From NCBI GenBank assembly GCA_030272155.1, contig CP126195.1:6245001-6309000 (forward strand): a stretch of 64,000 bases of DNA, read 5' to 3'. The translations under genes and the position numbers were made by a program. The notes under the pieces were generated by a model. The model had not been told where the DNA came from. It saw only the letters and a list, made by a program, of their open reading frames with translations, and did no database searches. Each line of letters opens with the position of its first letter. Positions within the stretch are counted from its first letter, which is position 1. This document shows, one piece after another, positions 38,329 to 63,432 of the stretch. This DNA comes from Tetradesmus obliquus. Its lineage: Eukaryota > Chlorophyta > Chlorophyceae > Sphaeropleales > Scenedesmaceae.

Positions 38329-39975
38329 TCACAGCGGCGGCAGCTTTGCTGGGAACTTCACACGCGCCCAGGCCTCATCGTATGCTGCCCAGTGCTGCCA
38401 GCCCAGCTGCTGCAGCAGCGTGCGCTTCAGCTGTGACGCCTCAGGGGCAGCAGCAGCAGGCACCTCGTCTGATGGAGCCAGCAGCTTGTCCAGCGCAGTA
38501 AGGGCGGCAGCAGGCCTGCAGGCAGCAGTGTGCATGCAGATTTGATGGTATTAAGCTGCAACTGATGTGATTCATGCAGATGTACAGACACGGCAACGCA
38601 AGGCAGCCAAGACATTGCAGCATTCTACAGAGGGCAGCATGCAGCAGCAGCACACCATCAACTGCGCTGCGCAGACACCAGAATAGACCGAGACGCACCC
38701 GCAACGCGTGCGCCGCAACAGCGCCTGCCGTAACACACATGATGTTTCCCTTGTCCTGCTTCATTGCACCAAAAGCTGCAGTGGGCCTTGAACCACTAGA
38801 AACACATCGCCATCTGCAATGGCAGCGCACCTGCCAGCTGCCGCCTCCACGCGTGCGTGCAGCAGCAGGTATTCCTTGTCTGCTGACGTGTCCACCCATT
38901 GCCGCAGCTGCGCCGCTGTGGCAGCCACATCAGCTGCTGCAGCTGCATCACCCGGCACCACCTGCAACACAAACAGCAGATAGGTGTGGGACAGCACATA
39001 AAAAAACATAATTGTGCTGGCAGTGCGAGCTATGCCAGCAGCTGTAACAGCGCTGGCGGCCGCCATACAGCAGTGCTCATTGTACATGTCTATAGTGCAT
39101 TGCTGCACCTGCGCCTCTGCTGGTCGGTGCGCTGCCTCACTTGCACCGACGGTCACGCGAGGCTCGACCTGATGCAAGGTCTGCTGCAGGCTTGCCGCAT
39201 ATGCATTGCTCGCATGAACTGTAACTCAACACAGGCAGTGCAGCCGCAACAAACAACGCTTCCTCAAACAAGCGCCACCCACCTCGGCCACCTCCAGCTG
39301 CGCCTTTGAGCCTCGCGCCAGAAATTGTAGCTCAGCAAAGGCAGGTTTGCAACAAAGCAGAATGTTCACACATAACAACTAGCAACTGTCAGCAGCATCA
39401 CCCACCTCTGCAGCCTCCAGTTGCGCCTTGAGCTTCACCCGCAGCGCTTCAAGTAAAGCAGCCTTGGCAGCATCCTTCTCAGCCTTCTGCTGCTTGTAGC
39501 TGCTGCTGCTGCTGCCGCTGCTGCTGCTGCTGACCTCACTGCTGCTGCTGCTGCTGCTGTTGGCTTCGTCTGCGTCTGCAGGCGCCCGCAGTGCCAAGAA
39601 TGCAGCCAGCTCTGGCACGTTGATGGCAGCAATGACTGCATCTGCTGCTGCGATGATGGCAGGCAGTTGCGCTGCACGTGCCTCGCCCTTAGCTGCAGCA
39701 GCCCTCCTGCAATACGAGTAGCAAGAAGCAGCAAGCGACATGCAGGGGAGACAGCAGTTCAGAATGGCTGCAATGGGTGCTGCCTAGATGCAGAGTATGC
39801 GGGGCTGTGGGTGGCAACTTGAGGCATGAAGAACTTGCTACAGCGCAACTCACACAGGCGAATCTGGTGGTATGCACAGAGCAGGGTGCAGGCAGCATCA
39901 TGCGGTGCCAGCATCAGCGCGCGCTGGCTGCACTCAGCATGTGCGCAGATACGCAAGATAGCCTCACAAGCAACA

Positions 39976-40009
<34 letters not shown>

Positions 40010-43000
40010 CCAGCCGCACCTCTTCAGGACCTCCAGCAGTAGCGGCAGGTGGCTTGGTGCCTCAGCCAGCAGCTCTGTGCTGAGGTCCTCTGCTGCTGCT
40101 GCCTCTTCTGGCTGGTCTGCCTTGAGCTCCTTCAGCAGCGCCAGCTTGGCATCACGCAGCGCCTCAGACAGCTGCAGGAGACAGGAGACAGGCAGACAGA
40201 CGGTCATGCAGACAGAAAGGCAAACACACAGACAGCCTTGAGCTCCTTCAGCAGCGCCAGCTTGGCATCACGCAGCGCCTCACACAGCTGCAGCAGCAAC
40301 AATAATTGAGCTTCCGATTAGGTTGGAACTTAGGCAGTAGTAGGCACAGGAAGGCGACAGGGGACAGGGTAGTGATGTGTTGTGGGAGTGTCAGGGAGCA
40401 GATGCGTATCAGCAGGCTATGGCATCACGCAGCGCCTCAGACAGCTGCACGGCCGGCCAGGCTTGTGGTGCTGAACAGGGTTGACAAGCGCTGATTGAGG
40501 TTTTGAATCGGGGATGTAAGTGAACGCGCCAGGAGGCAGGCGACAGAGCAGGCGACATGCCAGACAGGGCAGTGATGTGGTGGGATAAAAAACAGGTGAT
40601 GGAAAAGTAAGAGCGCAGGAGACAGGGCAGTTGGGAACAGGCACAGCAAGGACGCACATTTGTGCCGCACACAGCCCGGCGGTGGCTGGTCCAACTAGCA
40701 GCTGCATCCTGTGCCAAACCCCATTTCTCACAGCTCTGCATGCTCAGCCCAAGCAGCAGCGCTGCTGCGCACTCACCCTCTCTGCTGGCGGCTTGGGTGG
40801 CGGCTTGCTGCTGCTGCTGCTGTCGCCCTTGCCTGCCGCCTTGTCTGCTGCTGGCGGCGGCGGCAGGTACGCAAAGGGCGTCACGGCTGGCGCTGCCCCA
40901 CTGCCTCTTCGCAGCTGGCCCAGGCTGAGGGTGCCCTCCAGCACACGGCCTGCATTTGAAAACAGTGAGGTAACACAGCGCACCGTGTCACTAACACATT
41001 GTAACATGTGACATCACTATCCCCATGTGCTGTACGTAGTGTATACGCAGGTGCTGTCTTTTGCTGCGTTCCATGACAGTAGAAAGGCTACCTGACGGGC
41101 GCTCACCCATCTTCGCGTCAACTTGCCAGACGTTGTCAAACATCAGCATTCAACTTGATTTCTCAACAAATCAACGGGAGAGTTGTGCCCTGTGTAACAG
41201 AAGTGGCGCCGTGACTTTTTGGCTGCTGTGCCAATGCTTACCCTGTCCATGCTTGGGCAGCTTGCCATCTGGCAGCGACCAATGAAAACTGGCGCACTAT
41301 GCACCAGATATGCGTACCATGTGCATGCGCATGTATTGCTGACATAGTACCAGGCACTGTGCAACCCCACTGGCACGATGCTACTGCTGGCACCATTCCC
41401 CTTTCACTGATCCTCGGGGGCAAGCTTGTTGCACACCACCCAAAGGAAAGCAGTCAGCAGCTGAGGTGCAATCAAGTGGATCCCATTCGACTACACCGCA
41501 ACCACTGCCTGCTTCCCTTGAATGTATGTCCATCAAGCTTGCCCACAACTTCAGGGGAAAGTTACAGTGGTGCAGGAGGTCAAGATTGAAGCCAAACAGC
41601 AGCAACATTTGTTGACCCTGTGCATCTTTGGGCAGGTTGTCCCCGGGCACAGGCCCCAGCCCCAGCATGGCCCTGCCACAGTATTGTGTCCCAGGCACTT
41701 GCTGCATGCACTGCCTTTGCAGCTTCCAGTGTATATCATACAACAGCAAAGCGACTCCTCTCGACACTAACTCGCCCTCAACATAATCACCAGACAGGCA
41801 ACCAAGCCAATAAAGAATCAAACCTTACAAAAACAAACTCCGCCCACCTTGTGCATCCTTGGGCAGTTTGTCCTCGGGCACCGGCCCCAGCCACAGCATA
41901 GCCCTGTCGCCAGCAGACAGGAAGCACTCGCCCGCTGCGCTGCCGCCCGTGAGTGCTGCCGCGTGGCTGCTGTACACAGGCACTGCTACGGGGCTGTCTA
42001 GCTTGCGGCTGAGCACCTGCAGCAGCAGCAGCGGGTGCAGCAAGAGATGCAACAGGAAGCAGCAGCAGCATTGGAGGTGGTTAAGCAGCAGCAAAAACAG
42101 ACTTGCAACCTGGCTGCTGTACACATGTACTGCCACGGGGCTGTCCAGCTTGCGGCTGAGCACCTGCAGAAGCAGCAGCGGCAGAAGATGCAGCAGGAAG
42201 CAGCAGCAGCAAAGGGAGTTGGCGGCAGCGAATCAGACACGCATGCTGGCTGCTGTACACAGGTGCTGCCACAGGGCTGTCCAGCTTGCAACTCAGCACC
42301 TGGTGGAGGTGACAGCAGTGGCAGCAGGAACAGCAGCAGCAGCAGCAGAGGGTGGTCAAGCAGCATCAGGAACAGACACGCATGCTGGCTGCTGTACACA
42401 GGCACTGCCACGGGGCTGTCCAGCTTGCTGCTGAGCACCTGCAGGGGCAGCAGCAGCAGTGGAGGGTGGTTGAGCAGCCGCACAACTAACGTGCACGGGG
42501 GCTGGTGTAGGGTCACAGGGCTGTCCAGCTTGCGATTGAACCCCTGGGGATGGCAGCAGGTGCAGCAGCAGCAACAGGTGCGGCAGCTGCAGCAGCAGAG
42601 GGTGGTTAAGCAGCATCAGAAACAGACATGCATGCTGGCTGCTGTACGCCGGCACTGCCATGTGGCTGATCATCTGCAGGGGCGGCAGTGGGCAAGTGCC
42701 TTCACGCCTTCAGTTTAACTTGCCAACCTTGCACACAGCTCACCAGGCAAGTGCCCTTCAGCTTCTCCATCAGGGCCCTGTGGTCATGCCCTTGCAACCA
42801 CACGGAAGCATATTGCATACCTAAAAATCACTGATGTACCTCCCAACCTCGTGTCACTCGCGCGCTACTTACCAGGCAGGTGCCCTTCAGCTTCTCCAGC
42901 AGGGCTGTTGAATGGTGCAGCTGTATGATCTTTGCAAGCTTGCGTCAAACACCTGTCACCCAAGCTCCGCTGCCCAATTTGCAACTTTGCTGCTCACCAG

Positions 43001-46000
43001 GCAGGTGCCCTTCAGCTTTTCCAGCAGGGCCCTGTCGTCGTGCCGCAGCAGCAGCCGCGCGCTGTGCTCGCCCTTGGCCAGCGCCACCTCATCAGGCACG
43101 GCGTCACCCGTGTACAGCAGCCGCTTGTGCGAATCGAAGATCTGCAGATTGAATGAAAGTTAGCGGGTGCACAGCACAGCAGGGGTTCTCATCAGGCACA
43201 GCATCACCCGTGCACAGCAGCCGCTTGTGTGATTAAACATCTGCAAATCCACCAAACAGCAGGGGCACAGCACAGCAGGGGCACCTCATCAGGCGCAGTG
43301 ACACCCTTGATATACGGGTACAGGCACAGCGCCACCCCAGGACAGCAGCCGCGTGTGCGCCTCCAAATTCTGTGCAGTATCCGTGTAATTTTGGCTATGT
43401 TCATCGTGTACATGCCAGTAACAATATCACGGCCGCTATGGCTATCAGCACCGCAGAGCAGGCAACAACAGGCTGCTGCCCTGCCAGTGCTGCCCCGCCC
43501 ATCAACCAAAACCCAAAACCCAAGCCCACCTGCGTCAGCTGCGCCTCCAGGGGGCTGTCATACAGGTACCTGCACCACAGCAAAGCAGCAGCCACAGAGT
43601 GTTTTCGGTTTCATGTCTCTGGGCTTGCCTACAACCTGGTCCTGGCACGCGCAACTTAAGAACAGGAACCTGCGCCCCACCGCGCACACAGCAGCGATAG
43701 CAGAGCATTCGGGTTCTTGTTTCTGGAGTTTTTGTACACACGGGTCCTGCTAGACCTTAGAGCATTGAGAATGCGGGCGCTGTGCCACATGGCATCTGGC
43801 GCCTACAGATGTGCAGTTGCTGCCAGCTGCCATCACAAAAAAGTGGCTGCAACGCTGTTTGTCACAAGTAGAAGGCGTACACTACGTCCTGCATTGCCAA
43901 TCGCGGTTGCTCAACCAGACAACAAACAACACTAAACACCCGCCACGCCGCACCTGTTGGTGAGCAGACACACACAGCAGTCACGCCTGGCCCATACAAC
44001 TGCAGTTCAAAGCTCAGCGCCAAGCAGCACCCAACCACTTAACATAAGGACACAGCCGCCACGCCGCACCTGTTGGTCAGCGGCACGCAGGGCTTGTACT
44101 TCCCACCCTCAGTCACATTGAACCCATAGGTCAGCACCAGCCGGTACGCCACCCTGCCCCCAGGCAGGCAATCCCTGGGATCAAGCAGCGGCTCCACAGT
44201 TGCCTCTTTTGGCTTGATGCTGAGGTTGGCGTGTGTCAGCTTTGCTTCCGGCTTGACTTTCTGCCGGCGCAGCGGGCACTCCACCAGCAGCTGCAGCAGG
44301 ACAGGCAGTGTGCGGGATGATGGGGGTGTGAGGGCAGTGCAGTTAGCGGCGTGTCGGTTTTTGTTGGAGCATGTGGTGCTGGGGTGCTAGTGGCGCAGGC
44401 TGGTGTTGGCATGGCTGAGCTTGGCCTGCGGCTTGACTTTCCGCCGGCGCAGCGGGCACTCTACCAGCAGCTGCAGCGGTGTAAGGGATGAGGAGGGGCG
44501 TGAGGAATGAGGACAGTGCAGCAGGCGGCGCGTCAGGGTGTACTTGCGCGGAGAGCATGGGAGTGCAGTGGGCAGCGCTTCAGTGTTTGTTATGACATGT
44601 GGTGCTGGGGTGCTAGTGACACAGGCTCCTGGCGCAGCAGGCAGTCCACTAGCAGCTGCAGGCGAGTGTGCAGGGGCTGAAGGAAATGCAAGGTGCAGAG
44701 TGCGCCGCGTAAGCAATTGCTGTTTGTGCGGTTGCTGCTGGATGGCTGGCGGGGCAGGTGTATGAATTGGTAACAGATGCTCAGCAGAGCAGCAGACAGC
44801 GCTGCAGCAGAAGCCGCATGCTATGCTCGACGGCAGTCATATGTGCGGTTTCTGCACTGCCGACGAGCTGAGCGGCTGTCGCCCTGCCATCAGCCACAAC
44901 AATTTATCATGCACAGTGCAGGCAGTTGATCATGCGGGTTCTGCCTGCAACAAGCCTATTAGCTGGGCCCTGCCACCAGCCACACCACACCTTGAGTGGC
45001 CCTGCGGCACCTTCCAGCAGCAGCCCTGCGCCGGCAGCAGCAGCAGGCCCGCCCACCCCCAGCACGCCTGCATGACATCACATCAAAAGAAACAGCAGCA
45101 GCAGGGGCAGTTGCAGCAGCAGCATCAATAACATTTTCGCCCTATTCAAGGAAGGCACTGGAACTCTGAACCTGAGGCCCTGCTGCTGCTTGCGATGCCG
45201 CTCACTCTGCAAAAACCACCGAACACCAAACGTTTGTATGTTATAGTACTAGTCACTCTCTTGCACCACAACTGTCTTCGAAGGGCGCAGGGCGTGCGCG
45301 GCCGCACCTGCTGCAGCTTGTGCCGCCAGGCCATGGAAGGAGAGCTCCACCTCCAGGCTGCGGCTGCCGCCAAGGATTTAACAACTGCAATGAAATAAAC
45401 CAAACAAAGTACAAAGCCTGCACACCTGCCGTGGGCCGCGCATCGAGCCCATGGAAGGAGAGCTCCACCTCCAGGCTGCGGCTGCCCTGCTGCTACAGGT
45501 CTGCCGCACCGCACCGAACACCCTTCATACATTTACAACTGTATTTCAATGTACTTCACCATGGTGCATGATAAGCGCCGCACACCTGCTGCTGGCTGTG
45601 CAGCCAAGCCGTGGAAGGACAGCTCCACCTCCAGGCTGCTGCCCCCCAGGCTGCTCCAGAACTGGCTCAGAGTGAGCTCCAGCGTGGCCTCACCAGCAAC
45701 CTGCAGGAGAACACAACACACCAGAGCTTCAGAATTTAGAGGTATAACAAGGACACTGGCATGCATCACCATACCAGCATGCATGCATGCGTGCGTGAGC
45801 GCACAGCACAGAGTTCAGCCGCACAGCGCTTCAGCGTGCCAGCCACCTGGCTGAAGCGTAGCGCAGCACAGCCAGCACATAGCGGAGTCAGCAGCAGGCG
45901 CAGCAGCATGCAGTGATGGGCATACAGTGTGCTTGCATAGCGCAACAGGATGGACTGCCGCCACCATATGCAGATCAGAGAACGGTGCAGCCCAAGGTCA

Positions 46001-46536
46001 AACCAATGACACACGAAGCAAGCCGTGGCTGTGCCGAATGCATACGCTGTGGCCTGTTCTACCACAGTTGCTTGCCAGCACGCAGCATGCACAGCGCACC
46101 TTGAATGCCGCGCTGTACTCGCTGTTGGGTGAGAGCGTGAGTGTGGTGCGGTACTCGCTGTCGCTGTAGCGCACGTCAGGCAGCAGCTGCGTGGCCCTGC
46201 AAGCAACAAGGGATGCAGCAGAAAGACGCGTTGAGACCCGCACTGCAGGCGAACAGGCATGCAGCTGTCGCTGTAGTGCACGTCAGGCAGCAGCTGCGTG
46301 GCCCTACAGACACAGGTGAGACGGCACACAAGGATGCAAGGGCATGCAGCGCAGTGGCTGTATCGACACGCCAGGCAGGAGAAGAGCAGGGAGGAGACCT
46401 GCATGCTGTTTGTGCTGCTTGTTCTGTTTGCGCCCAGCACTCTTTGGGATCAGCGCTTGGCAACCGCACAAGTACGGGCGGTACATACAGATGCAAGTGC
46501 AGCAACACACAGCAGCGCAGCTGCTCGGCTGCAACC

Positions 46537-46578
<42 letters not shown>

Positions 46579-47757
46579 GCGCACCTGATCATGTACACCT
46601 TGGGCGTGTTGAAGCTGCCCCCACGGGTGACCATCTCAGCCCAGCTGGCGCCAGCAGGCGCGACCACAAAGTGGCGCAGCTCCTGCACATGTTTGAAAAC
46701 ATGGCGGCAGCATAAACAGCACGTGCATGAACAGCCGATGAGTCGCCTTGCTGTGACAAAGTGGCACAGCTTTTGCAGCATATGTCGGCACATGGAGCGG
46801 CACCATCAAGGCGGCACGTGCGTGAACAGCCGATGTGCCCACAATCTGCAGTGCAGCGGCACATGCAACAACAAAGTGGCGCAGCTCCTGCGGTGCATGT
46901 TGGCAGATGCAGCGACAGCATCCAGGCGGCACGTGTGACAACAGCCGAAGCACAGCGATAAGTGCAGCTGAGCATGCAGCGACAACAGGCGGCAAAGGAC
47001 GCAGTACACCATTGCAAGGAGTGACACACCCCACAAAACAGCACAAGCAGCACAGCAGCACCACATTACCCTGCTGCCCTCACCTGGCCAGGTTGCAGTG
47101 TCAGGGGCCCTAGCCGCAGCGTGTGCGGCGGCACATCTCCCCCAGCAGCAGCAGCAGCAGCACCAGCAGCAGCAGCAGCAGCACCACCTGCTGCGCCCCC
47201 AAACCCTGCCGGCGGCTGCTCAACAGCCGCCGTGGCCCCCGCAGCCGCAGCCGCATCAATGTCAGGGCTTTGCAACAGGTCCTGGGGTTTAACCACCGTC
47301 ACCGGAACCCTAAACAGCGGCCCGCGCCAATCCTGATCGGGGTTTATGGCCAGAACCTCGCCGTAATGCAGGCCTGGCGGCAGCGCTGTTGGGTCTACCC
47401 TCAGCTCAAAGGTGCGGCCGTTGTGGTGCAGCAGCAGCAGCTCGGGCGCTGACAGCCAGGGTGCGGTTGTGTGCAGCACTAGGTGCTCTTCAACTGCTAG
47501 CTTGTCATCAACAGATGCATCCTGCAGCCAGGCAGGCAGGCAGGCAGGCAGCAGGTGGGTAGGTATGCATGCAGACAGCCAGGGCACGGTAACGCGCAGC
47601 ACCAAGTGCTTTTCAAGTGTCATTGTCGTTGACAGAAGCATCCTGCAGCCAGGCAGCAGGCAACAAGTAATTCATTATGCACGCAGAGAGCCAGGGAGCG
47701 GTTGTGCTGCACGAGGTGGTCCTCCACTGCTAGCTTGTCGTCAACAGATGCATCCGG

Positions 47758-47793
<36 letters not shown>

Positions 47794-47894
47794 CTTTAGG
47801 CGGTTGGGTGTGCATGCGACCAGGGGGCAGCTCGTCCGGCGCGCAGCACCAAGTGCTCCTCTACTGCCAGCTTGTTATCAACAGACGCATCCTG

Positions 47895-47929
<35 letters not shown>

Positions 47930-50952: not shown

Positions 50953-51001
<49 letters not shown>

Positions 51002-54000
51002 CCTACCTTGTGCCATTCATCAGCTGCCGCTTCTGCAGCGTCCAGCCGGGCACTGTAGACACACAACAACGCAGCAGCAAGACGCGGTACAGTCTAGGTC
51101 TTGAGGCTTTGGGGTTTTTGAGGGACTGGCACTACATCAAATAGCATGAGCACCAGCAGCACAGCTACAGGTGGTGCTTGCTGCCATTCCAATGTGCCGT
51201 ACAGCGTATCATCACCCACATCCGTACATAACCGATCACTCAAGCACCCACTAGCCAAGCCTGGGCTTGCTGGCCATGCTGTGGATGCAGCGCTGTGCCG
51301 TGCAGCTGCCGGCAAAATTGCAGAGCCTAATGTGCTGCGCTTGTGTAAAAATGCTGCAACTGCAGGGCCAGGTTGCCTCACCGGGCGCGATGGCGCCTCC
51401 AGGGGCTGACAGTGCCACACCAATGTCACCATCCTGCGATAGCAGAGTAACGACACAGCAGCGCAATCAGTATCACGGCTTAGTTTACTATTGTAACAAG
51501 GAGTGCGCGAACTCTTACTGCTTTGCACACACACTACAACAGGTAAGCAGGCACTGCAACAGCCACACCAGCCGCAGCGCTCACATGTGTGGCCCCCCTG
51601 CTGCTCCAGGTGTACTGCTGGCCCTGCATGGGGCACACAAACATTTGTGGCCCTAAAACCAAATACAACAGCCACGCAGACGCTACAACAGCCACACCAG
51701 CCGCAGCGCTCACATGCGTGGGCCCCCTGCTGCTCCAGGTGTACTGCTGGCCTTGCTGCAGCTCCTGCCGCAGGCTGTGCCCAGCAGCAGCAAGGTCAGG
51801 GCTCACGTAGGCGCCTATGCCCAACAGGGCACTGCTGGTGCCTCCTGGCGCACCAACTGTGCTTAGCGCAGGGCCTGCAGGGGCAGCAGCAACACGCAAT
51901 ACAGTGCAAGTCACGTGGTGATGTAGGCGCCGATGCCCGGCAGGGCACTGCTGGTGCCCCCTGACGCACCCACCATGCTCAGCGCAGGGCCTGCAGAGAC
52001 AGAGGCGAGCAAGACATATGATTTGTGTGGTGGTGTAAGCAGCAGGTATGCACTGCTGGTGCCTCCTGGGCGCCCATCGTGCTCAGCGCAGGGCCTGCGG
52101 GGACAGGATTTGGGGGCAGGTGAGAGGATGTGTTGGGTGTGATTTGAACTGGCAAAGGCAGCAGCCAGGTCAGGGCTCACGTAGGCGCCGATGCCCAGCA
52201 GGGCACTGCTGGTGCCGCCTGGGGCACCAACTGTGCTCAGCGCAGGGCCTGCAGGGACAAACAGAAACAGGGAGTGCAGCATGTGTTACATAGCGGTGCA
52301 CCAACTGTGCTGCGCCTGCAGAGGAAGGCAGCAAATAGCAATGCGGGGTATGTAGGGGCATTTGCCCAGCAGCGCTCTGCTGGTGCCACCCGGGGCACCC
52401 ACAGTGCTCAACGCAGGCCCTGCAGGGACAGCGGTGAGCAGTTGACACATATGTCTTGTGTTGTGGTGTAAGCAGCAGGTATGCACTGCTAGTGACTCTT
52501 GGGGCGCCCATCGTGCTCAGCGCAGGGCCTGCGGGGACAGGATTTGGGGGCAGGTGAGAGGATGTGTTGGGTGTGATTTGAACTGGCAAAGGCAGCAGCA
52601 AGGCCGGGGCTCACGTACGCGCCGATGCCCAACAGGGCACTGCTGGTGCCGCCCGGAGCACCCACCGTGCTCAGCGCAGGGCCTGCAGGGGCAAAAGGTT
52701 GGCGTTGCGACAAGGTTGCGATGTGTGTTACATGGTGATGTAGGCGCCGCTGCCCAGCAGTACGGCACCTGTTGCGCCAACTGTACTCAATGCAGGCCCT
52801 CCAGGGGGCAGGGGTAAGAAGCGCAGCATATGTGACGTTGTGATTGTCAGCAGCAGCCAGGGCAGGGCTCATGTACGCGCCGATGCCCAGCAGCGCGCTG
52901 CTGGTGCCACCTGGGGCACCAACTGTGCTTAGCGCAGGGCCTGCAGGGGCGGGGGCAAGCAAGACGTGCAGCTATGTGTGTTGTGTTAGGGTGTCAGCAG
53001 CAAGTGCGTGCTGCTGGTGCCACCTGGGGCACCAACTGTGCTTAGCGCAGGGCCTGCAGGCGGCGGAGGCAAGCAAGGAGCGTAGATACTTGTGTCATGT
53101 TGCAGAACGCCTGATGCACCAGAACTGCTGCGTGGAATGCACCCGGACCTGCTTCACTTGCGCTGCCTGCGCTGGCCACAAAAATGACGCCGGCCTTGCA
53201 GCAACAGCAGTAACAGGCACAGCATAACACCTGGCCTGCTGCATTGACAAACCCTGCTCACCTGCATTGCCTGCGCTGGCCACGAAGATCACTCCGGCCT
53301 TGTGGACGGTCTCAGCAGCAATGTCGATGGCGCGCCCCACATCAGCGCGGGAGGCGGGCTGCGGCAGCAGCAGCGGCAGCAGCAGTACCATATGCGCACA
53401 TCAGCATTACCGCATGCACCGCATCAGCAGTACGGCATGTGCCACAGCAGCAGTACGGCATGCGCCACGGTGATGTGGCAGGCATGGTGTTTGGTGAGCA
53501 TGAGAGCAAGATGATTTGCCCTGCCTCGCCGCAGCTGCTGCTGATGAGCTTAGCGTTCTCAAAACGGACATGCCATGCATTGCTGTGATCTTTCATTGGC
53601 CCCACGTGCAGGACACTCAATGATCAAACTGCCTGCCTGGCTCGCAGCAACCACTGCGCAGCATGCAACGAATGACCGCCATTTGTTGTGTCCTTTGTGG
53701 TTCGTAAAACTCGTTGCATGCTTTTGCTGCATGACATGAGCATCACAAGCAACTTGACCGCACCGCACCGCACCTCGCCGTAGCTCATGTTGATGATGTC
53801 TGCTCCCGCCTCCATGACCGCGGCCAGAGCGCGCACCAGCCCCGTGCCCGTCTCCATGCTGCCCAGGCGGCTGTCGCCGATCTTGCAGGAAATAATTTGC
53901 GCGCCTGCACAGATTGAACGAACAAAGTGAAGTGAGCACAGCAGGCAACGAAGACAATGCTCAGCATGTTTACCTCCATAGGAGTGAAATTGTGCCAACA

Positions 54001-54311
54001 TTGTCGGCGCTCTTGCGGGAGATGATCTGAGCTCCTGCGCAGGCGGGCACAGCAACCGGAGAGCATGATTGGCCGCAGATGTTGCACTGAAAAAGCAATG
54101 CTTTTGCCAGGCACATGCTGCCAATCATGCAGAAGTTGATTTAGATGCTTGCACAGCCAGACGCAGCAGGCAGATGCCACAGCCAGATCCCATCCCCCAC
54201 ATTCATATCACGACATTCACATCACGACAGCAGAAGATCAGCAGCGGTCACTGTGTATAACACATAGCAAGCCAGCACCACATGCACCCCATAGTGATGG
54301 GCTGCTGCCGC

Positions 54312-54359
<48 letters not shown>

Positions 54360-54878
54360 ACTTCAATGCAGTGTTGCGCGTGTGCCGCCCACCTGGAGCC
54401 ATGCCATTGGCTGCGGGGTCATCAGGGAAGTGAGCCGCTACAATGCCTGCACGCAGCGACAGCGCACAGCCGTCCTCAACATATGAAGGTGGCGAGTTGC
54501 ACGACAAGCTGGTTGCATAGACAACACAACAAGAGCACAAGCATAGCTGAGGTGACTCTTGCCAATCTCTGGAAGTGAAGGGGGGCGATCTCGCAAAACG
54601 CAGCCGGTGCATGTGTGCCAGAAAACCCTGCGGCTACCTGGCCTGCGCATGCAAAGGTGACACATGGATAGAACTGTACATATGCTGCCTCTACCACTGC
54701 TCTTTGAACTCCTGCTGCTGCACTAAATCGGTTGCCACCACATGCTCTCAGGCGACTGCGGCGGGCTCGATTGTCTACGGCAATCTGCGTTTGCTGCTGC
54801 TCACCAGCGACGTGTGTGCCGTGTGCGCCAGCGTCCACCACAATGCACAGCGTGTTGCCCTCGTCATACACCTGCCAG

Positions 54879-54935
<57 letters not shown>

Positions 54936-55501
54936 GCTCGGTGTTGTGAAACTGCAGGCACTCATCCTGTGCAGCAGCACTCCTGGCAGCAGAAGCTCTG
55001 CAATCTTACAACACAACAAAGACAGCAGGGGCCCAAACATGCAGCACGCACCAGCAACATACAAGCCGCAGCAATGCGTGCTGGTGCTGCGCCAGCTACT
55101 GCGCCGGCTGCTGCGTCCCTCACCTTGAGTGCCTACAAGCAGCCATCTCAGCCGCTGCATCCCGCTGCGCGCGATCTAAGTATAATTGCTGCCAAAGGCC
55201 TGGAGTAGAAGCAGACAATGTATTTGGTGAGCATGACGCGCGCCTCACCTTGACTGCGTACGCGCAGCCGTCCTGGCCGCTGAACTTGCCATATTGCCGC
55301 TCCTCTTTAAAGTCAGCCAGCGGCGTGAAATCAGCCAGTAGGCCCTGCCTTCTGGCACCCCCCTGCTGCTGCTGCTGCTCCTCATCCTTTTCATTGCTGC
55401 TGCTGCTGCTGCTGCTGTAGTCAGGGTACATGTCAGATGTGTCCAGGGCCACACGCCAGGTGGATCCATCATGCCACACCACGCAGTCCACCACAGGGCC
55501 T

Positions 55502-55534
<33 letters not shown>

Positions 55535-57001: not shown

Positions 57002-57063
<62 letters not shown>

Positions 57064-57933
57064 GGTCAAAGCTGTTAAGGATGAGCGTGAAATGATGCAG
57101 AGCCACTGCACGCACCTGCAAACTGCAGCAGCACCCCTGCACACACGCCTCACCCTCACACACAAGCTGCAGCAATCTGCAGCTGCCATCCACACACCTT
57201 AGGCTGGCCACCCAATCTGAGCTGCACACACCTAGCGCCTGTACACACCAGACACCGCACACACACCAGAGTGCTGCCCGCACTGCCCTCCACACCTTGG
57301 GCTTGCCCTCACTGGTGAGCTGTAGCCCCGCAGCGCTGGGGTCCACGCCCCTGTCAAACACATGGCCCCTACACACGCACATAACACAACTGCAATTGCA
57401 ATGCAGCACAACATTTGCTACCCACCTTGGGCTTGCCGTCTGTGGTGACCTGCAGCCCTGCTGCGCTGGGGTCCACGCCCGTGCCAAAAACATGGCCCTA
57501 CACCCCCACAGAACACAGCTGCAATTGCAATGCAGCACAACATTTGCTACCCACCTTAGGCTTGCCATCTGTCGTGACCTGCAGCCCAGCAGCGCTGGGG
57601 TCCACGCCCGTGCCATACACATGGCCCCTACACACACAGAGTGACACTGCAGCTGGCCCAAAACACACCTTGGGCTTGCCGTCTGTTGTGAGCTGCAGCC
57701 CCGCAGCGCTGGGGTCCACGCCCGTGTCAAAACACGTTCCCCCTTTGCGCACATCATTTTGAGCTACTGCAGCTGGCCCAAAACCCACCTTGGGCTTGCC
57801 ATCTGTCGTGACCTGCAGGCCTGCAGCGCTTGGGTCCACGCCGGTATCGAAGATGGCCACCACCACGCCGCGCCCATCACACTGCGGGTGCTGATCCAGG
57901 AAGCGCAGCGCGCCTGAGGAGAGATGATTTGGG

Positions 57934-57967
<34 letters not shown>

Positions 57968-58771
57968 TGTTACAGGTGTAGAAGCAAAAATCAGCCGTCA
58001 CACTGCGGGTGCTGCTCCAGGAAGCGCAGCGCGCCTGCGGACAGTTGATTACACAACGCAGCAGCAGCAGCAGCAGCAGCAGCAGGTGCATACAAGTATC
58101 AGCCGTCACACTGCGGGTGCTGCTCCAGGAAGCGCAGCGCGCCTGCAGAGGGATTAATTAGAAAGCAGCAGCAGCAGCAGGTGTACACAAGTGTCAACAG
58201 CAATCAGCCGTGATGCTCTTGGTGCTGCTCCAGGAAGCGCAGCGCGCGTGAGCAGAGGTGGGGAAACAAAGCAGCAGCCGCAGCAGGTGCGCACACGTGT
58301 TGCAGCCGATGAGTCGCTACAGTGCACATATTGTTTAGAAGGCGCAGCGCGCCTGGGGGAGATGCATTCCTAGCAAGCTGCTGAGCAGCGTGAGTCTGAA
58401 ACGCACCTATCTCTGACTTTGGCATTGCGCCAGCAAACAGCTGCAGTGCGTCTCCCAGCGATGAACCTGCTGCTGCTGCTGCTCCTGCCGGGCGCTGTGC
58501 CATGTCTTGACTACCTGCAGCGCTGCTGCTGCTGCTGCTGCCACTGCCAGCTACCACTGACTGCTGCGCAGTAGGTGCCTTGCTGCTGCTGGCGGATTGC
58601 CCCTGCTGCTGCTGCTGCTGCTGCAGCTGCTGCTGCTGTTGTGGTCTAGGCGGCTTTGGTTTCAATGGGTGACTGCTGGCGCCAGTGCTGTTGCTGCTGC
58701 TGCTGCTACTGGTGCTGTATACGGTGGCGTTGTGCACTGCAGAGCACTTGACTGATGCACGGGCAGCGGTC
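38329..58771 (-). CDS. TPP2: Tripeptidyl peptidase II (subtilisin-family), at least 29 exons
   Basis: Serine exopeptidase that removes tripeptides from N-termini of peptides, normally a giant cytosolic complex downstream of the proteasome. Exons: 58771-58407, 57913-57789, 57001-56810, 56330-56033, 55499-55249, 54871-54805, 54446-54393, 53904-53774, 53358-53262, 51874-51714, 51433-51382, 51052-51007, 50710-50464, 50086-50028, 49630-49492, 47521-47084, 46682-46585, 46196-46100, 45700-45586, 45025-44991, 44290-44070, 43569-43530, 43141-42998, 42016-41848, 40949-40777, 40171-40020, 39706-39406, 38961-38831, 38515-38329. Phases agree across joins. Catalytic sites: Asp in A-I-F-D-T-G-V-D (exon 2), His in A-H-G-T-H-V-A (exon 6), oxyanion Asn in A-S-A-G-N-A-G (exon 9), Ser in N-G-T-S-M-A-S-P split between exons 12 and 13. 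The end [18 protein letters not shown] is the family C-terminus. About 1,500 residues, longer than plant TPP2 because of polyS/Q/A inserts. The true start is unresolved: exon 1 has an in-frame ATG at 58737, but an acceptor-like site precedes 58771. Confidence 0.95.
39283..39312 (-). repeat. Decoy exon end with donor after TPP2 exon 39706-39406
   Basis: Repeats the exon end coding K-A-Q-L-E-A-A-E before /GTGGGT, here K-A-Q-L-E-V-A-E before /GTGGGT. Lies 123 bases downstream in the intron. Confidence 0.8.
40225..40444 (-). repeat. Two decoy exon starts upstream of TPP2 exon 40171-40020
   Basis: The exon start (acceptor CAG, then [17 protein letters not shown]) recurs at 40287 (L-C-E-A-L-R-D-A..., ~50 bases) and 40444 (L-S-E-A-L-R-D-A, ~30 bases). 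Spacing is 116 and 157. Confidence 0.88.
41242..41690 (-). repeat. Two decoy exon ends after TPP2 exon 42016-41848
   Basis: Copies of the exon end [14 protein letters not shown]: one ending near 41617 ([14 protein letters not shown]) and one ending at 41242 (D-G-K-L-P-K-H-G-Q) followed by GTAAGC. They are more diverged and more widely spaced than other arrays. Confidence 0.75.
42100..42673 (-). repeat. Five decoy exon starts upstream of TPP2 exon 42016-41848
   Basis: The exon start ([17 protein letters not shown]) recurs with acceptors before 42163, 42299, 42438, 42543 and 42673. Spacing is 147, 136, 139, 105 and 130. The first four keep a clear S-x-K-L-D-S-P core or its frameshifted remnant; the outermost keeps only V-P-A-Y-S-S. 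CAG-rich spacers lie between the copies. Confidence 0.88.
42744..42910 (-). repeat. Two decoy exon ends with donors after TPP2 exon 43141-42998
   Basis: The exon end [10 protein letters not shown] / GTGAGC recurs with ends at 42873 (/GTAAGT) and 42744 (/GTGAGC). Spacing is 125 and 129. Both donors are consensus. Confidence 0.9.
43190..43400 (-). repeat. Two decoy exon starts upstream of TPP2 exon 43141-42998
   Basis: The exon start region coding [14 protein letters not shown] recurs with starts at about 43240 and 43355. The copies carry frameshifts, so they match at DNA level only. Confidence 0.75.
43954..43975 (-). repeat. Decoy exon end with donor after TPP2 exon 44290-44070
   Basis: CTCACCAACAG/GTGCGGCGTGGCGG recurs 116 bases after the real CTGACCAACAG/GTGCGGCGTGGCGG junction. 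It keeps the donor and about 12 bases of intron as well as the exon edge. Confidence 0.85.
44395..44655 (-). repeat. Two decoy exon starts upstream of TPP2 exon 44290-44070
   Basis: The exon start [14 protein letters not shown] recurs at 44470 (about 70 bases, [14 protein letters not shown]) and 44655 (about 28 bases, L-L-V-D-C-L-L-R-Q). Acceptors are retained. Spacing is 180 and 185. Confidence 0.88.
45308..45480 (-). repeat. Two decoy exon ends with donors after TPP2 exon 45700-45586
   Basis: The exon end [18 protein letters not shown] recurs, ending at 45426 (/GTGTGC) and 45308 (/GTGCGG). Spacing is 160 and 118. About 55 bases of exon are conserved in each. Confidence 0.9.
46260..46303 (-). 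repeat. Decoy exon start upstream of TPP2 exon 46196-46100
   Basis: TAG/GGCCACGCAGCTGCTGCC ([13 protein letters not shown]) repeats the real start ([13 protein letters not shown]) 107 bases upstream. Confidence 0.9.
46740..46890 (-). repeat. Two decoy exon starts upstream of TPP2 exon 46682-46585
   Basis: The exon start E-L-R-H-F-V-V-A recurs at 46887 (acceptor CGCAG kept) and near 46773 (K-L-C-H-F-V-T-A, acceptor AG degraded). Spacing is about 91 and 114. Confidence 0.85.
47580..48155 (-). repeat. Five decoy exon starts with CCTG-repeat acceptors upstream of TPP2 exon 47521-47084
   Basis: The exon start [16 protein letters not shown] recurs at 47642, about 47754, 47891, 48031 and 48155 (spacing 121, 112, 137, 140, 124). 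In several the pyrimidine tract is a pure CCTG tetranucleotide run (GGCAGGCAGG on the plus strand, for example 47757-47795 and 48160-48208). The copy at about 47754 has lost its AG (reads CCGG). Confidence 0.92.
49020..49290 (-). repeat. Two decoy exon ends with donors after TPP2 exon 49630-49492
   Basis: The exon end S-V-T-P-A-L-H-E / GTGGGG recurs ending at 49234 (/GTGCGT) and 49020 ([14 protein letters not shown]). Each carries about 50 bases of exon. Spacing is 258 and 214, about double the usual period, suggesting loss of intervening copies. Confidence 0.88.
49715..49779 (-). repeat. Decoy exon start upstream of TPP2 exon 49630-49492
   Basis: CCGCAG/GTATGACGTGACCGTGTCG repeats the real start (Y-D-V-T-V-S-G-G) 149 bases upstream, with about 60 bases conserved. 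Confidence 0.9.
50768..50850. repeat. 33-base tandem repeat in a TPP2 intron
   Basis: Two copies of a unit containing GATAACATGCTGCAGTCGTAAT followed by CAGCCCAGCAG. It is unrelated to exon sequence. Confidence 0.9.
51585..51640 (-). repeat. Decoy exon end with donor after TPP2 exon 51874-51714
   Basis: Repeats the exon end [11 protein letters not shown] / GTGAGC as [11 protein letters not shown] / GTGAGC, 129 bases downstream. Confidence 0.92.
51915..53053 (-). repeat. Nine decoy exon starts upstream of TPP2 exon 51874-51714 (ten acceptors in all)
   Basis: The exon start [15 protein letters not shown] occurs ten times on the minus strand, with first bases at 53053, 52940, 52798, 52682, 52528, 52419, 52248, 52094, 51990 and 51874 (real). 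Spacing is 104-171. All end their upstream sequence in AG, nine of ten in CAG. The copies at 52682 and 52248 extend through G-I-G-A-Y-V-S-P and beyond; others stop after 45-70 bases or are frameshifted. The string G-A-Y-V-S is written TAC/GTGAGC, itself a donor consensus, so some copies could even act as mini-exons. Confidence 0.95.
53149..53205 (-). repeat. Decoy exon end after TPP2 exon 53358-53262
   Basis: Repeats [13 protein letters not shown] as [13 protein letters not shown], about 113 bases downstream. The donor-like GTCCGG after 53149 is weaker than the real GTGAGC. Confidence 0.88.
54000..54034 (-). repeat. Decoy exon start upstream of TPP2 exon 53904-53774
   Basis: GCGCAG/GAGCTCAGATCATCTCC (A-Q-I-I-S-R-K) repeats the real start [10 protein letters not shown], 130 bases upstream, with the acceptor conserved. 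Confidence 0.88.
54880..54942. repeat. CAG/CTG tract at the acceptor of TPP2 exon 6
   Basis: About 60 bases of CAG units with CAA interruptions on the plus strand, upstream (minus strand) of the acceptor before 54871. Confidence 0.95.
55124..55160 (-). repeat. Decoy exon end with donor after TPP2 exon 55499-55249
   Basis: Repeats the G-C-A-Y-A-V-K / GTGAGG end as a diverged copy ending at 55124 (/GTGAGG), 125 bases downstream. Confidence 0.8.
55805..55890 (-). repeat. Second copy of the TPP2 exon 4 end, in frame, with its own donor
   Basis: Exon 4 ends [14 protein letters not shown], then S-Y-D-D-A (donor after 56033). The frame stays open to a second version, [14 protein letters not shown] then S-Y-D-D-P, with a donor after 55805 in the same phase. 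Either donor joins correctly to exon 5, so two protein forms differing by 76 residues are possible. Confidence 0.85.
56583..56632 (-). repeat. Decoy exon end with donor after TPP2 exon 57001-56810
   Basis: The end [11 protein letters not shown] / GTGCGT recurs as [11 protein letters not shown] / GTGGG, ending at 56583, 227 bases downstream. Confidence 0.88.
57003..57062. repeat. CAG/CTG tract at the acceptor of TPP2 exon 3
   Basis: About 57 bases of CAG units on the plus strand directly upstream (minus strand) of the acceptor before 57001. Confidence 0.95.
57296..57735 (-). repeat. Four decoy exon ends with donors after TPP2 exon 57913-57789
   Basis: The exon end [20 protein letters not shown], each followed by GT, recurs ending at 57670, 57555, 57426 and 57296 (spacing 119, 115, 129, 130). 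55-65 bases of exon are almost unchanged. Donors read GTGTGT, GTGGGT, GTGGGT and GTGTGG. Confidence 0.95.
58000..58352 (-). repeat. Four decoy exon starts upstream of TPP2 exon 57913-57789
   Basis: The exon start [13 protein letters not shown] recurs at 58034, 58142, about 58247 and 58352 (spacing 121, 108, 105, 105). Three keep the acceptor AG; the one at 58247 reads ACG. CAG tracts separate the units. The repeats thus sit on both sides of the same exon. Confidence 0.95.
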
Positions 58772-60141: not shown

Positions 60142-60180
60142 GCTTTGCAGCATCCACAGCAGGCAGCAAATCAGCCACCT

Positions 60181-60728
60181 GCACCACCACCTTGCCGCTG
60201 CTGGCGCCACACTGCAGCCTCGCTACTGCATCAGGCACTGCACCAAAGCCCTGGGAGCGCCCCGCACAGCTTCACTTCACAGCGGCCTCAACGGCCGGCA
60301 GAGACTCGGCAAATTGCACCACCACCTTGCCGCTGCTGGCGCCGCCCTGCAGCCTTGCCACCGCATCAGGCACTGCAGCCAGCCCAGTGAAGCGATCAGC
60401 ACAGCTTCATTCACAGCTTCGCGGCCTCTGCGGCTGGCAGAGACTCAGCCAGCTGCACCACCACCTTGCCGCTGCTGGCGCCGCCCTGCAGCCTTGCCAC
60501 CGCATCAGGCACTGCACCAAAGCCCTGGGAGCGCCCCGCACAGCTTCACTTCACAGCGGCCTCAACGGCCGGCAGAGACTCGGCAAATTGCACCACCACC
60601 TTGCCGCTGCTGGCGCCGCCCTGCAGCCTTGCCACCGCATCAGGCACTGCAGCCAGCCCAGTGAAGCGATCAGCACAGCTTCATTCACAGCTTCGCGGCC
60701 TCTGCGGCTGGCAGAGACTCAGCCAGCT
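60181..60728 (-). repeat. Higher-order repeat of the ZADH2-like gene's last coding segment
   Basis: The GCACCACCACCTTGCCGCTG block starts at 60181, 60316, 60455, 60590 and 60729 (spacing 135, 139, 135, 139). Two alternating spacer types (one with CACCAAAGCCCTGGGAGCGC, one with AGCCAGCCCAGTGAAGCGAT) give an A-B-A-B pattern with a 274-base super-period. Only the copy at 60729 is coding (P-D-A-V-A-R-L-Q-G-G to V-V-Q-L-A-E-S); the other four lie after the stop codon. Confidence 0.93.
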
Positions 60729-60878
60729 GCACCACCACCTTGCCGCTGCTGGCGCCGCCCTGCAGCCTTGCCACCGCATCAGGCACTGACCCCAGCCCAG
60801 TGAAGCGCTGACTGTCCAGGGCCACTGCCAGCTGCCCTGACTGCACCAGCGCGCACAGCCGCGCCAGGTGGGGCCTGC

Positions 60879-60912
<34 letters not shown>

Positions 60913-63432
60913 CAGCAGCAGCAGCAGCGGCAAGAACACATATGAGGTCTCGTTGTGTTTGGTGTACAGCAATGAGCAGCAGCACACGCGACAGTGCGCA
61001 TGCATGCACATGATCCTGTGCCTTACAGTTGGCATCGCGCCTGGAGCAAGCACAGCAGCTGACAACAAACATCAACTCAAACCATGGCTTGCATTTGCAC
61101 TGCAGGTGACCTGCACATCTACATGCACGTACAGCAATGCGCCACATGCGCTCCCAAACCCGCTCACCCCCAGAGCCTGGCTGTGCGCAGCAGGAAGAAG
61201 CCGCCACCGCCACACCATCAGCACACACAAAAACAGCACGCACATGCATGTACTTTGCTATATCATGCTAGCTTTCCCCAAAACCTGGGGCACCCACCCC
61301 CAGAGGCTGGCGTAGCGCAGCAGGAAGAAGCCCGCCACTGCCGCACCAGCAGCACTCGAGAATATACCACAAACGTATAAACACTGCTGTAAAATGCTTC
61401 ACATTGCTTGATAAAGCTACATTTCCCTGCACCTCTCACTCACCCCCACAGGGCAGCATATCTCAGCAGGAAGAAACCTGCCACTGCCGCATTCTTCCAG
61501 AGCAGCTTCTCAGGCAGGCCCGCGTGGGCGCTGGGCTGCCAGCCCTCCGCATACGCGCTCATCATGCCGATGATGATGAGCGTGCCTTTGGGGGCTAGTG
61601 CATCCACGCACAGCGCAAACATGTCGCCACCCACAGACTGCAGCGTAGCAACAGCAGGATGCGAGAAGGTGTGGCAGGGTGAGAAGAAAAAGCGGCGGCT
61701 GGAGCAGCAGCAGATGAAATTGAAGTGGGCGCAAAGGCTTGCTGCAATGTTGACATGGGGGGCTGCTCATGCCGATGATGGTGAGCGTGCCTTTGGGGGT
61801 CTAGTGCATCAACGCACAGCGCAAACATGTCGCCGCCCACAGACTGCAGCACGGCAGCAGGGTGTTCAACAGCAGGATGGACACCAGTGAGCATGCGGCA
61901 GCAGTGGCATCAGTAGCAGAAGAAGTTGAAAAGGTTTCAGGGGTGTTGCGTGTCACACAACATGCTGACGGTGACCAAAGCGTGCCCGCAGATGTTACTC
62001 TGTGAAACTTCTGTTACATTTTCAGCACACACAGATCGGCTGCAACACGTCGCCCACACCTAACCTTGGGCACAAGAAACGCCAGCCCTGTTTCTTGCTT
62101 GATCAGCAGGCTTTCACCTCTGCCAGGCCTCTGCTGCTACCTGCTGTGTGTTTGCTGTTCATGTTGTAAACTCGCTTACACATGGCATGCAGTCATCTGA
62201 GCGAAACAGTCATTGTGTCACTTGCTTGGTCCCGGGCCCCACCTCGTAAATGAGGTCTATGCCAGCCGCGTACTCCTGCTTCAGCACCGCCTTCACCGAC
62301 TCAGCCCTGCAGCAGCAGCAGCAGCAGCAGCCAGCCAGGCATGAAACGGCAGCAGTGTTGGCTGTGCTTGCACTGATATATGTAACACTGCCGCCAACAT
62401 CAGCCAGCACGCCGGCGTCTTCACCACCACCACCACCACCACCACAGGCAAGCCTGGCAGACACAACCCACCTAAATCTGTTCCATGCCCTGTTCCAATC
62501 AACAACCCATGTCACATGGCATGTCACATGTCACATGCTACCACTCACTTGTAGTCGATAACGCGGTCCACGCCCAGCTGCCGCAGCAGCGCAGCCTTGG
62601 CAGGCCCGCCGCACGTGGCCACCACATGGCAGCCAGCAAGCTTGGCCAGTTGCACAGCAAACTGCCCAGTGCCGCCCGCAGCAGCCGTCACCAGCACCGT
62701 CTTCTGCTTCTGCGACTTATCGCTGTTACTAACCGTCATATGACTGTTATTTTTGTTGTTACTTTTGGGGAGCTGCAGCCGCCCGACCTCTTCCAGTGCA
62801 ATGGAGGCGGTGAGGCCGCTGGTGAGAAGAGCCACTACCTCAGGTGCTGCGCAGGGCACTGGCAGTGCGCGGCGCGCCTGCAGCACTGCATATTCTGAGA
62901 AGCCGCTCTCCATGGTGGCCACAGCAGACCCCACTGGCAAACCTGCGGTGCATGCAGGAGGTGAAGCGCAACACAGCCGTGTCAGTGGCAGCAGCAGCAG
63001 CGGCAACGGCTGTAAAAGGTGCGAAGTGCCTGCAGCAGTGCATATAGAGAAGCCGCTCTCCATGGTGGCCACAGCAGACCCCACCGGCAGGCCTGCGGTT
63101 GATGCAGACACAGACAAAACAGTATCATCAGCGGCAGCGGCAGCAGCAGCAACAATTGATGGGACTAGCTTAGCAGGTGCAGAAGAATGCTCAAACAACC
63201 AGCGACACTGCCCGGAGGCACCGGCCTGCACGCTGATGTACCTACAGGGACGCGTTCGAACTCCACCAAACAGCAAGAAAGCAGCGCAAGCCTCAACCAT
63301 AGGCAACAGCTGTACCGGCCAGCCACCCCACCTGCTGCTGCATCTGCTGCTGCTGCCACCACGATGCCCACACTCTCAAAGCCAGCATCATACGGCAGCG
63401 CCGCCTTGGCTGCTGCTGCACTGCCATGGTAC
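60685..63432 (-). CDS. NADPH-dependent zinc-type alcohol dehydrogenase / quinone reductase (ZADH2/PTGR3-like), 5' end unresolved
   Basis: Medium-chain reductase of the kind that reduces alpha,beta-unsaturated ketones with NADPH. Exons that join in phase: 63432-63332, 62942-62549, 62306-62243, 61637-61444, 60874-60685 (stop). Landmarks in order: R-Y-H-G-S then L-P-Y-D-A-G-F-E-S-V-G-I-V, G-S-A-V-A-T-M-E-S-G-F-S-E-Y, T-S-G-L-T-A-S-I-A-L, the cofactor loop V-L-V-T-A-A-A-G-G-T-G-Q-F-A-V-Q-L-A-K-L-A-G, G-V-D-R-V-I-D-Y-K, Y-E-S-V-G-G-D-M-F, and the C-terminal G-K-V-V-V-Q-L-A-E-S. Order and spacing fit ZADH2/PTGR3 better than crystallin-type QOR. A Ser/Asn/Lys-rich insert (about 62700-62760) precedes the cofactor loop. 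N-terminal exons upstream of 63432, toward the window edge, could not be placed. Confidence 0.88.
61168..61345 (-). repeat. Two decoy exon ends with donors after ZADH2-like exon 61637-61444
   Basis: The end G-F-F-L-L-R-Y-A-A-L-W-G / GTGAG recurs ending at 61298 (G-F-F-L-L-R-Y-A-S-L-W-G /GTGGG) and 61168 (G-F-F-L-L-R-T-A-R-L-W-G /GTGAG). Spacing is 146 and 130. Confidence 0.92.
61745..61843 (-). repeat. Decoy exon start upstream of ZADH2-like exon 61637-61444
   Basis: CTGCAG/TCTGTGGGCGGCGACATGTT repeats the real start S-V-G-G-D-M-F-A-L-C-V-D-A-L for about 95 bases, 206 bases upstream, with a frameshift after D-A-L. Confidence 0.92.
63035..63092 (-). repeat. Decoy exon start upstream of ZADH2-like exon 62942-62549
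   Basis: CCGCAG/GCCTGCCGGTGGGGTCTGC (G-L-P-V-G-S-A-V-A-T-M-E-S-G-F-S) repeats the real start 150 bases upstream; the acceptor is intact. Confidence 0.92.

Follow-up and report, generated by a model that had tools for sequence, protein, structure and literature searches.

Tandem copies of exon edges resembling lancelet mirages in introns of the green alga Tetradesmus obliquus

Introduction

In lancelets, minisatellite-like tandem duplications across intron-exon boundaries have been described as "mirages" in Adh3, TnC, the globin genes BflGb6 and BflGb9, and PGBD5, with units of 10-72 bp in Adh3, 150-160 bp in BflGb6, 157 bp in BflGb9, and 60 and 108 bp in PGBD5 (PMC3087553, PMC3902484). The available sections of these reports give data suggesting that splicing is undisturbed and record haplotypes that differed in mirage copy number (PMC3087553, PMC3902484), and one of them reports concerted evolution of the arrays (PMC3087553). 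Here we describe tandem copies of exon edges in introns of the green alga Tetradesmus obliquus, found in a stretch of contig CP126195.1 analyzed over its whole length of 64 kb (the window), which carries the genes for tripeptidyl-peptidase 2 (TPP2) and a ZADH2-like zinc dehydrogenase. The source genome comprises 104.7 Mb in 17 contigs, with a GC content of 57% and abundant CAG/CTG triplets. The excerpt available from a published table for this species lists the same GC content, a mean intron of 462 bp, and 7.8 introns per gene (PMC5966456). The total sample was 264 kb from five contigs, made up of the window and four 50-kb blocks, one from each of four other contigs.

Judged from the genome sequence, the algal arrays can be assigned to the mirage class, three of whose defining features they share. 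Their units include an exon edge and the adjoining intron (copies in 53 of 227 sampled introns; spacers homologous in 28/37 within-array pairs), 5′ and 3′ boundaries are both affected (acceptor copies in 27 introns, donor copies in 35, both in 9), and many copies, not all, keep AG or GT (50/54 acceptor and 47/52 donor copies). They differ in being spread over nearly a quarter of the sampled introns of a green alga, whereas the available lancelet descriptions concern single genes, and also in that the nearest copy mostly lies 100-139 bp away and that stop-codon edges are copied as well. The preliminary description of the locus knew of no named class, but the class has already been named in lancelets and is little studied; the lineage and the scale appear to be new. 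Among the matches listed in a search of titles and abstract openings of open-licence papers, which did not cover subscription papers, there was no report in algae or at genome scale.

Two other systems involve tandem duplication at or near splice sites. In potato RdRp, one tandem duplication across an intron-exon boundary became a new intron, with RNA reads in support (PMC4974935), and in the intron gain of the Rogers type a unit made up of exon sequence alone is duplicated, with the new intron running from one AGGT copy to the other (PMC3443670). As far as the accessible text describes them, the potato copy lies within a new exon-intron structure, whereas the algal copies are many and look intronic; the AGGT model likewise yields surplus splice sites by tandem duplication, but the algal unit contains an existing boundary with its splice motif, has homologous intronic spacers within arrays, enlarges an existing intron, and is not of the AGGT type. 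Introner elements, by comparison, are sequences repeated across many introns of different genes. In the alga the copies in each intron match that intron's own exon edge, and other introns gave no match (0/201 and 0/198) in a search made with exon edges and not with spacers or whole introns.

Exon-edge copies in the TPP2 and dehydrogenase genes

Only the intron adjoining each exon edge was scanned, with a seed of at least 18 of 24 identical bases at the edge. In this way we found 48 exon-edge copies in 21 of the 33 introns of the two genes; TPP2 has at least one copy in 18 of its 27 introns and the dehydrogenase in 3 of its 6 (Table 1). Thirty-one are copies of acceptor edges, of which 29 have AG, and 17 are copies of donor edges, of which 16 have GT (45/48 together, by hand count). 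One TPP2 exon (57789-57913) has arrays on both flanks. The preliminary description had proposed that the introns of both genes hold tandem copies of the neighboring exon boundary and that most keep the splice dinucleotide, and on both points it was right; a blastn self-alignment of the window recovered the same arrays.

The dehydrogenase gene also has a tandem array at its 3′ end, in which the final ~100 coding nucleotides, including the stop codon, recur into the 3′ flank. This array is the same process at an edge other than a splice site. Among predicted gene ends, which are less secure in the gene finder than splice edges, downstream copies were found at 3 of 16 stop edges (the dehydrogenase not being among the three) and copies at 1 of 14 start edges, both being small numbers. 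Since copying also affects stop-codon edges, what the copied sites have in common seems to be a coding edge and not a splice site, and the tie to splice sites as such that had been drawn at first is not supported.

Spread beyond the window

Copies were present in 21/53 retained introns of the window and in 32/174 of the other blocks (9/33, 5/47, 7/41, and 11/53). The window is rich in edge copies yet not unique, and copies were met in all five sampled regions. When the count was restricted to genes with homology support (TPP2, the dehydrogenase, ClpP, the aspartokinase-like and RAD54-like genes, and STT3), 28 of 62 introns had them. Copy-bearing introns were longer than the rest (median 461 vs 272), in agreement with the proposal that the process expands introns, and the stretch between the edge and its farthest copy accounted for 17.5% of intronic bases in the 227 introns.

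Two loci outside the window may be mentioned. In a RAD54/SNF2-like gene (block L026, 550-1927), arrays of up to five donor-side copies occupy consecutive introns, and two units are identical in both the exon part (64/64) and the spacer (61/61). Elsewhere, at 7308-7559 of block L011, one acceptor-side copy spans 97 nt or more and has eight differences, all at third codon positions, with seven of the changed codons synonymous and one not. From its sequence, this copy may represent a genuine duplication of the exon start, perhaps used as an alternative.

Sharpness of the copied boundary

A 24-mer was slid across each boundary, and a copy was counted where at least 20 of its 24 bases matched in the adjoining intron. 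At acceptors, copies were found for 24/201 edges, 21/185 at 8 nt into the intron, 4/162 at 15 nt, 1/140 at 24 nt, and 1/144 at 30 nt, with 5/161 at 60 nt and 9/156 at 100 nt farther in; on the exon side there were 13/209 at 24 nt and 2/179 at 40 nt. The donor profile was similar, with 28/198 at the edge, 22/204 at +8, 8/200 at +15, 1/178 at +30, and 5/159 at +100 on the intron side, and 15/196 at -24 and 1/164 at -56 on the exon side.

When edges were compared at the same threshold with another intron, no copy was found (0/201 acceptor, 0/198 donor), with a maximum of one match at any offset. At a threshold of 18/24, direct copies in the adjoining intron were found at 27/209 acceptor and 35/211 donor edges, compared with 0/209 and 2/211 for inverted copies and 1/140 and 0/143 for copies in the intron at the opposite end of the exon. 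The picture was unchanged with a stricter gene finder, which gave 233 introns: acceptors had 26/207 at the edge vs 2/144 at an intronic offset of 24 nt, and donors 29/201 at the edge vs 2/186 at +30. Fisher tests of the edge signal gave p values between 3e-5 and 5e-9, and 6e-8 for acceptor edges against another intron. The copies are thus bounded at the exon edge beyond chance, in direct orientation and in the adjoining intron, as had been claimed.

Anatomy and decay of the unit

Of 57 edges, 37 had their nearest copy at a distance of 100-139 bp, 15 of them at 120-129 bp, which differs from the earlier estimate of periods mostly between 105 and 185 bases. In gapped alignments of 48 nearest copies at lags of up to 180, the exon part consisted of the first or last 29-146 nt of the exon, with a median of 53. 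The first account of edge copies therefore stands, with the qualifications that only this short part of the exon is copied and that the span it gave takes in the stop-codon array.

Spacers of nearest copies were homologous at p<=0.02 at 22/57 edges and gave p>0.3 at 21/57. Within arrays, successive spacers were homologous (z>3) in 14 of 18 real-copy pairs and 14 of 19 copy-copy pairs, and therefore whole units were duplicated. An alternative in which unrelated filler was inserted together with the copied edge is weakened by the same homology. In the homologous pairs the exon part was 93.2% identical between real edge and copy and 89.5% between copies, while the spacers were 81.2% and 84.8% identical, respectively, with 6-7 gaps per 100 bases. 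The exon parts held only 14 indels in 5156 aligned nt, and thus the spacers decay faster, chiefly via indels. Some units have identical spacers (50/50, 61/61), so that some duplication events are recent; to this extent the suggestion of an ongoing process is sustained.

Origin of the arrays

The copies are probably mirage-type minisatellites that result from recurrent tandem duplication straddling coding edges, together with faster decay of the intronic half. The location, direct orientation, and period of the copies were observed, as were whole-unit homology in most testable arrays, the unconstrained change of the copies, and the stop-codon cases. Under such a process, random short tandem duplications with a unit of about 100-140 bp (~120) would recur in the genome, and some would straddle an acceptor, a donor, or a stop codon. 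Those inside exons would be removed by selection, and those across an edge would survive. Splicing or termination would presumably keep using the edge that is joined to the exon body, and the duplicate would be tolerated as non-coding DNA, making the intron longer and supplying an extra splice site that looks strong. The half derived from the exon would long stay recognizable, while the intronic half would gather indels and fade, until the remnant resembled an exon edge alone. Arrays would grow and turn over through further whole-unit duplication, the units themselves being produced by some route of replication or repair. By analogy with the lancelet arrays, concerted evolution could keep the exon parts alike.

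Several results weigh against this reading. In three simulation runs with uniform placement and roughly measured decay rates, the share of the edge signal that persisted at intronic offsets of 24-30 nt was 0.36-0.62, and equal decay rates raised it to 0.85-0.89, whereas the observed value was 0.06; the decay model gets the direction right and not the full sharpness, so boundary sharpness is only partly explained. It had been argued that bulk satellites would not respect exon boundaries in this way. Part of that apparent respect comes from the faster decay of the intronic half, though the simulation falls short of the observed sharpness. The exon part exceeded 70 nt in 10/48 copies against 21.7 expected under uniform placement, and at 4 of 57 edges the exon part differed by no more than 3.5% although the spacer had no homology at p<=0.1. 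Near-identical repeats (at least 38/40) touched a modelled exon at 37 of 45 loci, a count made with a complexity filter that introns passed more often than exons (0.736 vs 0.604), and pairs at 90% identity or more comprised 33 at exon edges vs 3 within introns only. These repeats may reflect some true preference for edges, and an edge-anchored component may therefore contribute. Differences between the real edge and its nearest copy numbered 148 at third codon positions vs 83 at positions 1 and 2, beyond a simple clock (p 3e-9); by a rough reckoning this excess shrinks, without vanishing, once the copies' own third-position share is allowed for, and it remains partly unexplained. In addition, the AG/GT and indel counts take each copy of an array separately and are not independent.

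High allelic divergence with recombination is a possibility for the third-position excess. As far as the accessible text goes, one published relative, a Scenedesmus, is likely diploid, and its assembly separates alleles (PMC7955037). Another published relative has an assembly almost twice the size of its sister strain's.

Much of the same evidence bears on duplication that is anchored at the edge itself. A break, a template switch, or a chromatin feature at the boundary would start the event, and the edge and its splice motif would be copied with a different spacer. This is unlikely, though it would account for a profile that is sharp within about 10-20 nt of the boundary, for a sharpness that exceeds the decay simulation, for the short exon parts, and for little-diverged copies with unrelated spacers, such as that in TPP2 intron 24 (exon part 52/53 identical, spacer p 0.84). 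It is opposed by the 28/37 within-array pairs with homologous spacers, in which whole units were duplicated, and by the 3/16 copied stop-codon edges, which are contrary to a trigger linked to splicing. A wider form of the idea, which we regard as doubtful, is that a process anchored at coding edges, copying ~30-80 nt of exon with the splice motif in stereotyped steps of ~120 bp, has been fast enough to produce about one-sixth of all intronic sequence, and that it continually stocks introns with ready-made splice sites. If so, it would represent boundary-directed intron growth and not a by-product of random tandem duplication.

It is quite improbable that the copies are functional, as alternative exon ends that are translated or that regulate splicing and are kept by selection. 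Differences between the real edge and its best copy are concentrated at the third codon position (40/35/142 at positions 1/2/3, 58 edges), and AG or GT is kept in 97 of 106 sampled copies (one further copy of the 107 was excluded for want of a reading frame). Their sites also score near real ones (acceptors 5.55 vs 6.45 and donors 6.08 vs 6.26, compared with ~0 and 0.9 for random intronic AG and GT), so the surplus of splice sites envisaged in the preliminary description is supported and, by score, the copied sites could be used. However, the retention of AG/GT is about that expected from 5% change per site (0.95 squared = 0.90), and therefore no special selection on these dinucleotides is needed. 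Thirteen of 14 copy indels are frameshifting, at least three recurring in one array. Among changes seen in a single copy, the third position is just slightly favored (24/40/42 at positions 1/2/3), whereas each of the 15 changes confined to the real edge falls there (22 arrays in both counts). The far ends of the copies have no partner splice site, with a strong-site share of 0.17 vs 0.21 in the control for A and 0.17 vs 0.19 for D, and spacing does not favor multiples of three (17/51 acceptor and 16/48 donor copies). Taken together, the frameshifts, the copy-private changes, the far ends, and the unphased spacing indicate that the copies evolve as non-coding DNA. The first three of these speak against translated copies, which the third-position excess had suggested.

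Slippage or repair at CAG/CTG or CCTG tracts beside splice sites, the mechanism first put forward for this locus, is very improbable. CAG/CTG triplets abound in the genome and runs of CTG make up some of the spacers, but the units are about 120 bp of complex sequence, and at exon-side ends, to which this comparison is confined, CAG/CTG lay within 5 nt in 22/57 cases against an exon background of 0.54. Clear breakpoints, on which microhomology was looked for, were few. An assembly artefact from collapsed or falsely joined haplotypes is hardly credible, for although the Scenedesmus assembly mentioned above separates alleles (PMC7955037) and the available text on lancelets records one mirage mis-assembled in a draft (PMC3087553), the copies occur in 53/227 introns on five contigs, directly oriented in the adjoining intron, with diverged units and frameshift indels.

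The alga thus presents mirage anatomy across many genes of a lineage distant from lancelets; one step length is preferred, and the fraction of intron sequence involved can be measured. It offers a system for measuring, in large numbers, how introns grow, how surplus splice sites originate, and how a duplicated boundary leads to a new intron.

Gene models and sampling

Exon models came from a purpose-written hidden-Markov gene finder that was seeded only on TPP2 exons recognized by reading. Left unmasked, the finder takes many copies as extra exons, as they bear coding statistics and splice sites, and these copy-exons were then removed by automatic masking under an ad hoc rule. The same behavior is a warning for annotation, where an ab initio finder will call copies as extra in-frame exons and so write false repeats into predicted proteins. 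Of 484 predicted introns, 227 were kept (exons of at least 45 nt, introns of 90-3000 nt), and low-complexity edges with fewer than 13-14 distinct 3-mers were dropped. Copies with less than 18-20 nt of exon homology were dropped from the anatomy, indel, codon-position, spacing, far-end, site-strength, CAG/CTG, and spacer analyses, and the window from 20.9 to 38.2 kb, which holds repeats resembling mobile elements, was excluded from the singleton and near-identical-repeat analyses.

When every copy is omitted, the exon chain of the N-terminal half of TPP2 matches PDB 3lxu (E 5.9e-91, two significant stretches), and therefore the real edges are identified in that part of the gene. Placement of the intron 2 acceptor and the intron 7 donor of TPP2 is approximate, and neither has AG/GT as placed. 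The dehydrogenase matches Pfam ADH_zinc_N (PF00107, E 2.9e-24). Elsewhere the finder recovered ClpP (E 6e-49), an aspartokinase-like amino-acid kinase with ACT domains, an SNF2/RAD54-like helicase, and STT3, and 5 of 7 predicted proteins submitted had a Pfam match. Long GCA/GCT runs lie at 54301-57062 of the window and elsewhere, in introns and also as poly-Ala, poly-Ser, or poly-Gln in predicted exons, and the adjoining exon ends are therefore hard to place.

Features of the window

Table 1 Genes, exon-edge copies, and direct repeats in the window (window coordinates)
Feature	Position	Strand	Description
TPP2 gene	58475-38329	minus	28 exons modelled, 27 introns; 3lxu homology
TPP2 intron 1	57914..58310	minus	3 acceptor-side copies (58034, 58142, 58247) upstream of exon 57789-57913; AG 2/3
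TPP2 intron 2	57293..57788	minus	4 donor-side copies (57668, 57554, 57425, 57295) of exon 57789-57913; spacing 114-130; GT 4/4
TPP2 intron 5	55124..55157	minus	Donor-side copy; seed 19/24; GT kept
TPP2 intron 7	54002..54034	minus	Weak acceptor-side copy; seed 18/24; AG kept
TPP2 intron 8	53525..53547	minus	Weak donor-side copy; seed 19/24; GT lost
TPP2 intron 9	53158..53198	minus	Donor-side copy of exon 53262-53358
TPP2 intron 9	51875..53077	minus	9 acceptor-side copies of exon 51714-51874 over 1.2 kb; lags 116-1179; AG 9/9
TPP2 intron 10	51535..51627	minus	Donor-side copy; lag 129
TPP2 intron 13	49726..49829	minus	Acceptor-side copy; lag 149
TPP2 intron 14	49020..49301	minus	2 donor-side copies (49233, 49019)
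TPP2 intron 14	47522..48208	minus	4 acceptor-side copies (47754, 47891, 48031, 48155); inter-copy spacing 124-140; AG 3/4
TPP2 intron 15	46865..46985	minus	Acceptor-side copy
TPP2 intron 16	46264..46308	minus	Acceptor-side copy; lag 107
TPP2 intron 18	45308..45364	minus	Donor-side copy; lag 278
TPP2 intron 19	44399..44655	minus	2 acceptor-side copies (44470, 44655)
TPP2 intron 21	43321..43369	minus	Weak acceptor-side copy; seed 18/24
TPP2 intron 22	42744..42905	minus	2 donor-side copies (42872, 42743)
TPP2 intron 22	42017..42668	minus	4 acceptor-side copies (42163, 42299, 42438, 42543); spacing 105-147; AG 4/4
TPP2 intron 23	41242..41675	minus	2 donor-side copies (41616, 41241)
TPP2 intron 24	40235..40449	minus	2 acceptor-side copies (40287, 52/53 nt identical; 40444)
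TPP2 intron 26	39283..39321	minus	Donor-side copy; lag 123
Zinc-dehydrogenase (ZADH2-like) gene	63412-60689	minus	7 exons found, 5′ end not established; Pfam PF00107
Dehydrogenase intron 1	62946..63153	minus	Acceptor-side copy; lag 150
Dehydrogenase intron 4	61767..61850	minus	Acceptor-side copy; 95% over 84 nt; lag 206
Dehydrogenase intron 6	61168..61268	minus	Donor-side copy; lag 130
Dehydrogenase stop-codon array	60171..60807	minus	Last ~100 nt of coding sequence incl. stop codon; period 139/274, into 3′ flank
Direct repeat	30280-30421 = 30937-31078		blastn self-alignment, region 21489-32298
Direct repeat	30502-30801 = 31864-32163		Extending to 435 nt
Direct repeat	22834-23090 = 25814-26070
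Direct repeat	21489-21666 = 22558-22735		99%

Just upstream of the first dehydrogenase exon found, a tandem array with a 105-bp unit occupies 63427-63740, possibly marking the edge of a 5′ exon that escaped detection. A different kind of repeat lies at 21489-32298, where exact or near-exact direct repeats stand in a split arrangement. The frames beside them gave no significant match in Pfam (five single frames) or PDB (one frame). By reading, the minus-strand frames there resemble the reverse transcriptase and tyrosine recombinase of a DIRS/PAT-like retroelement.

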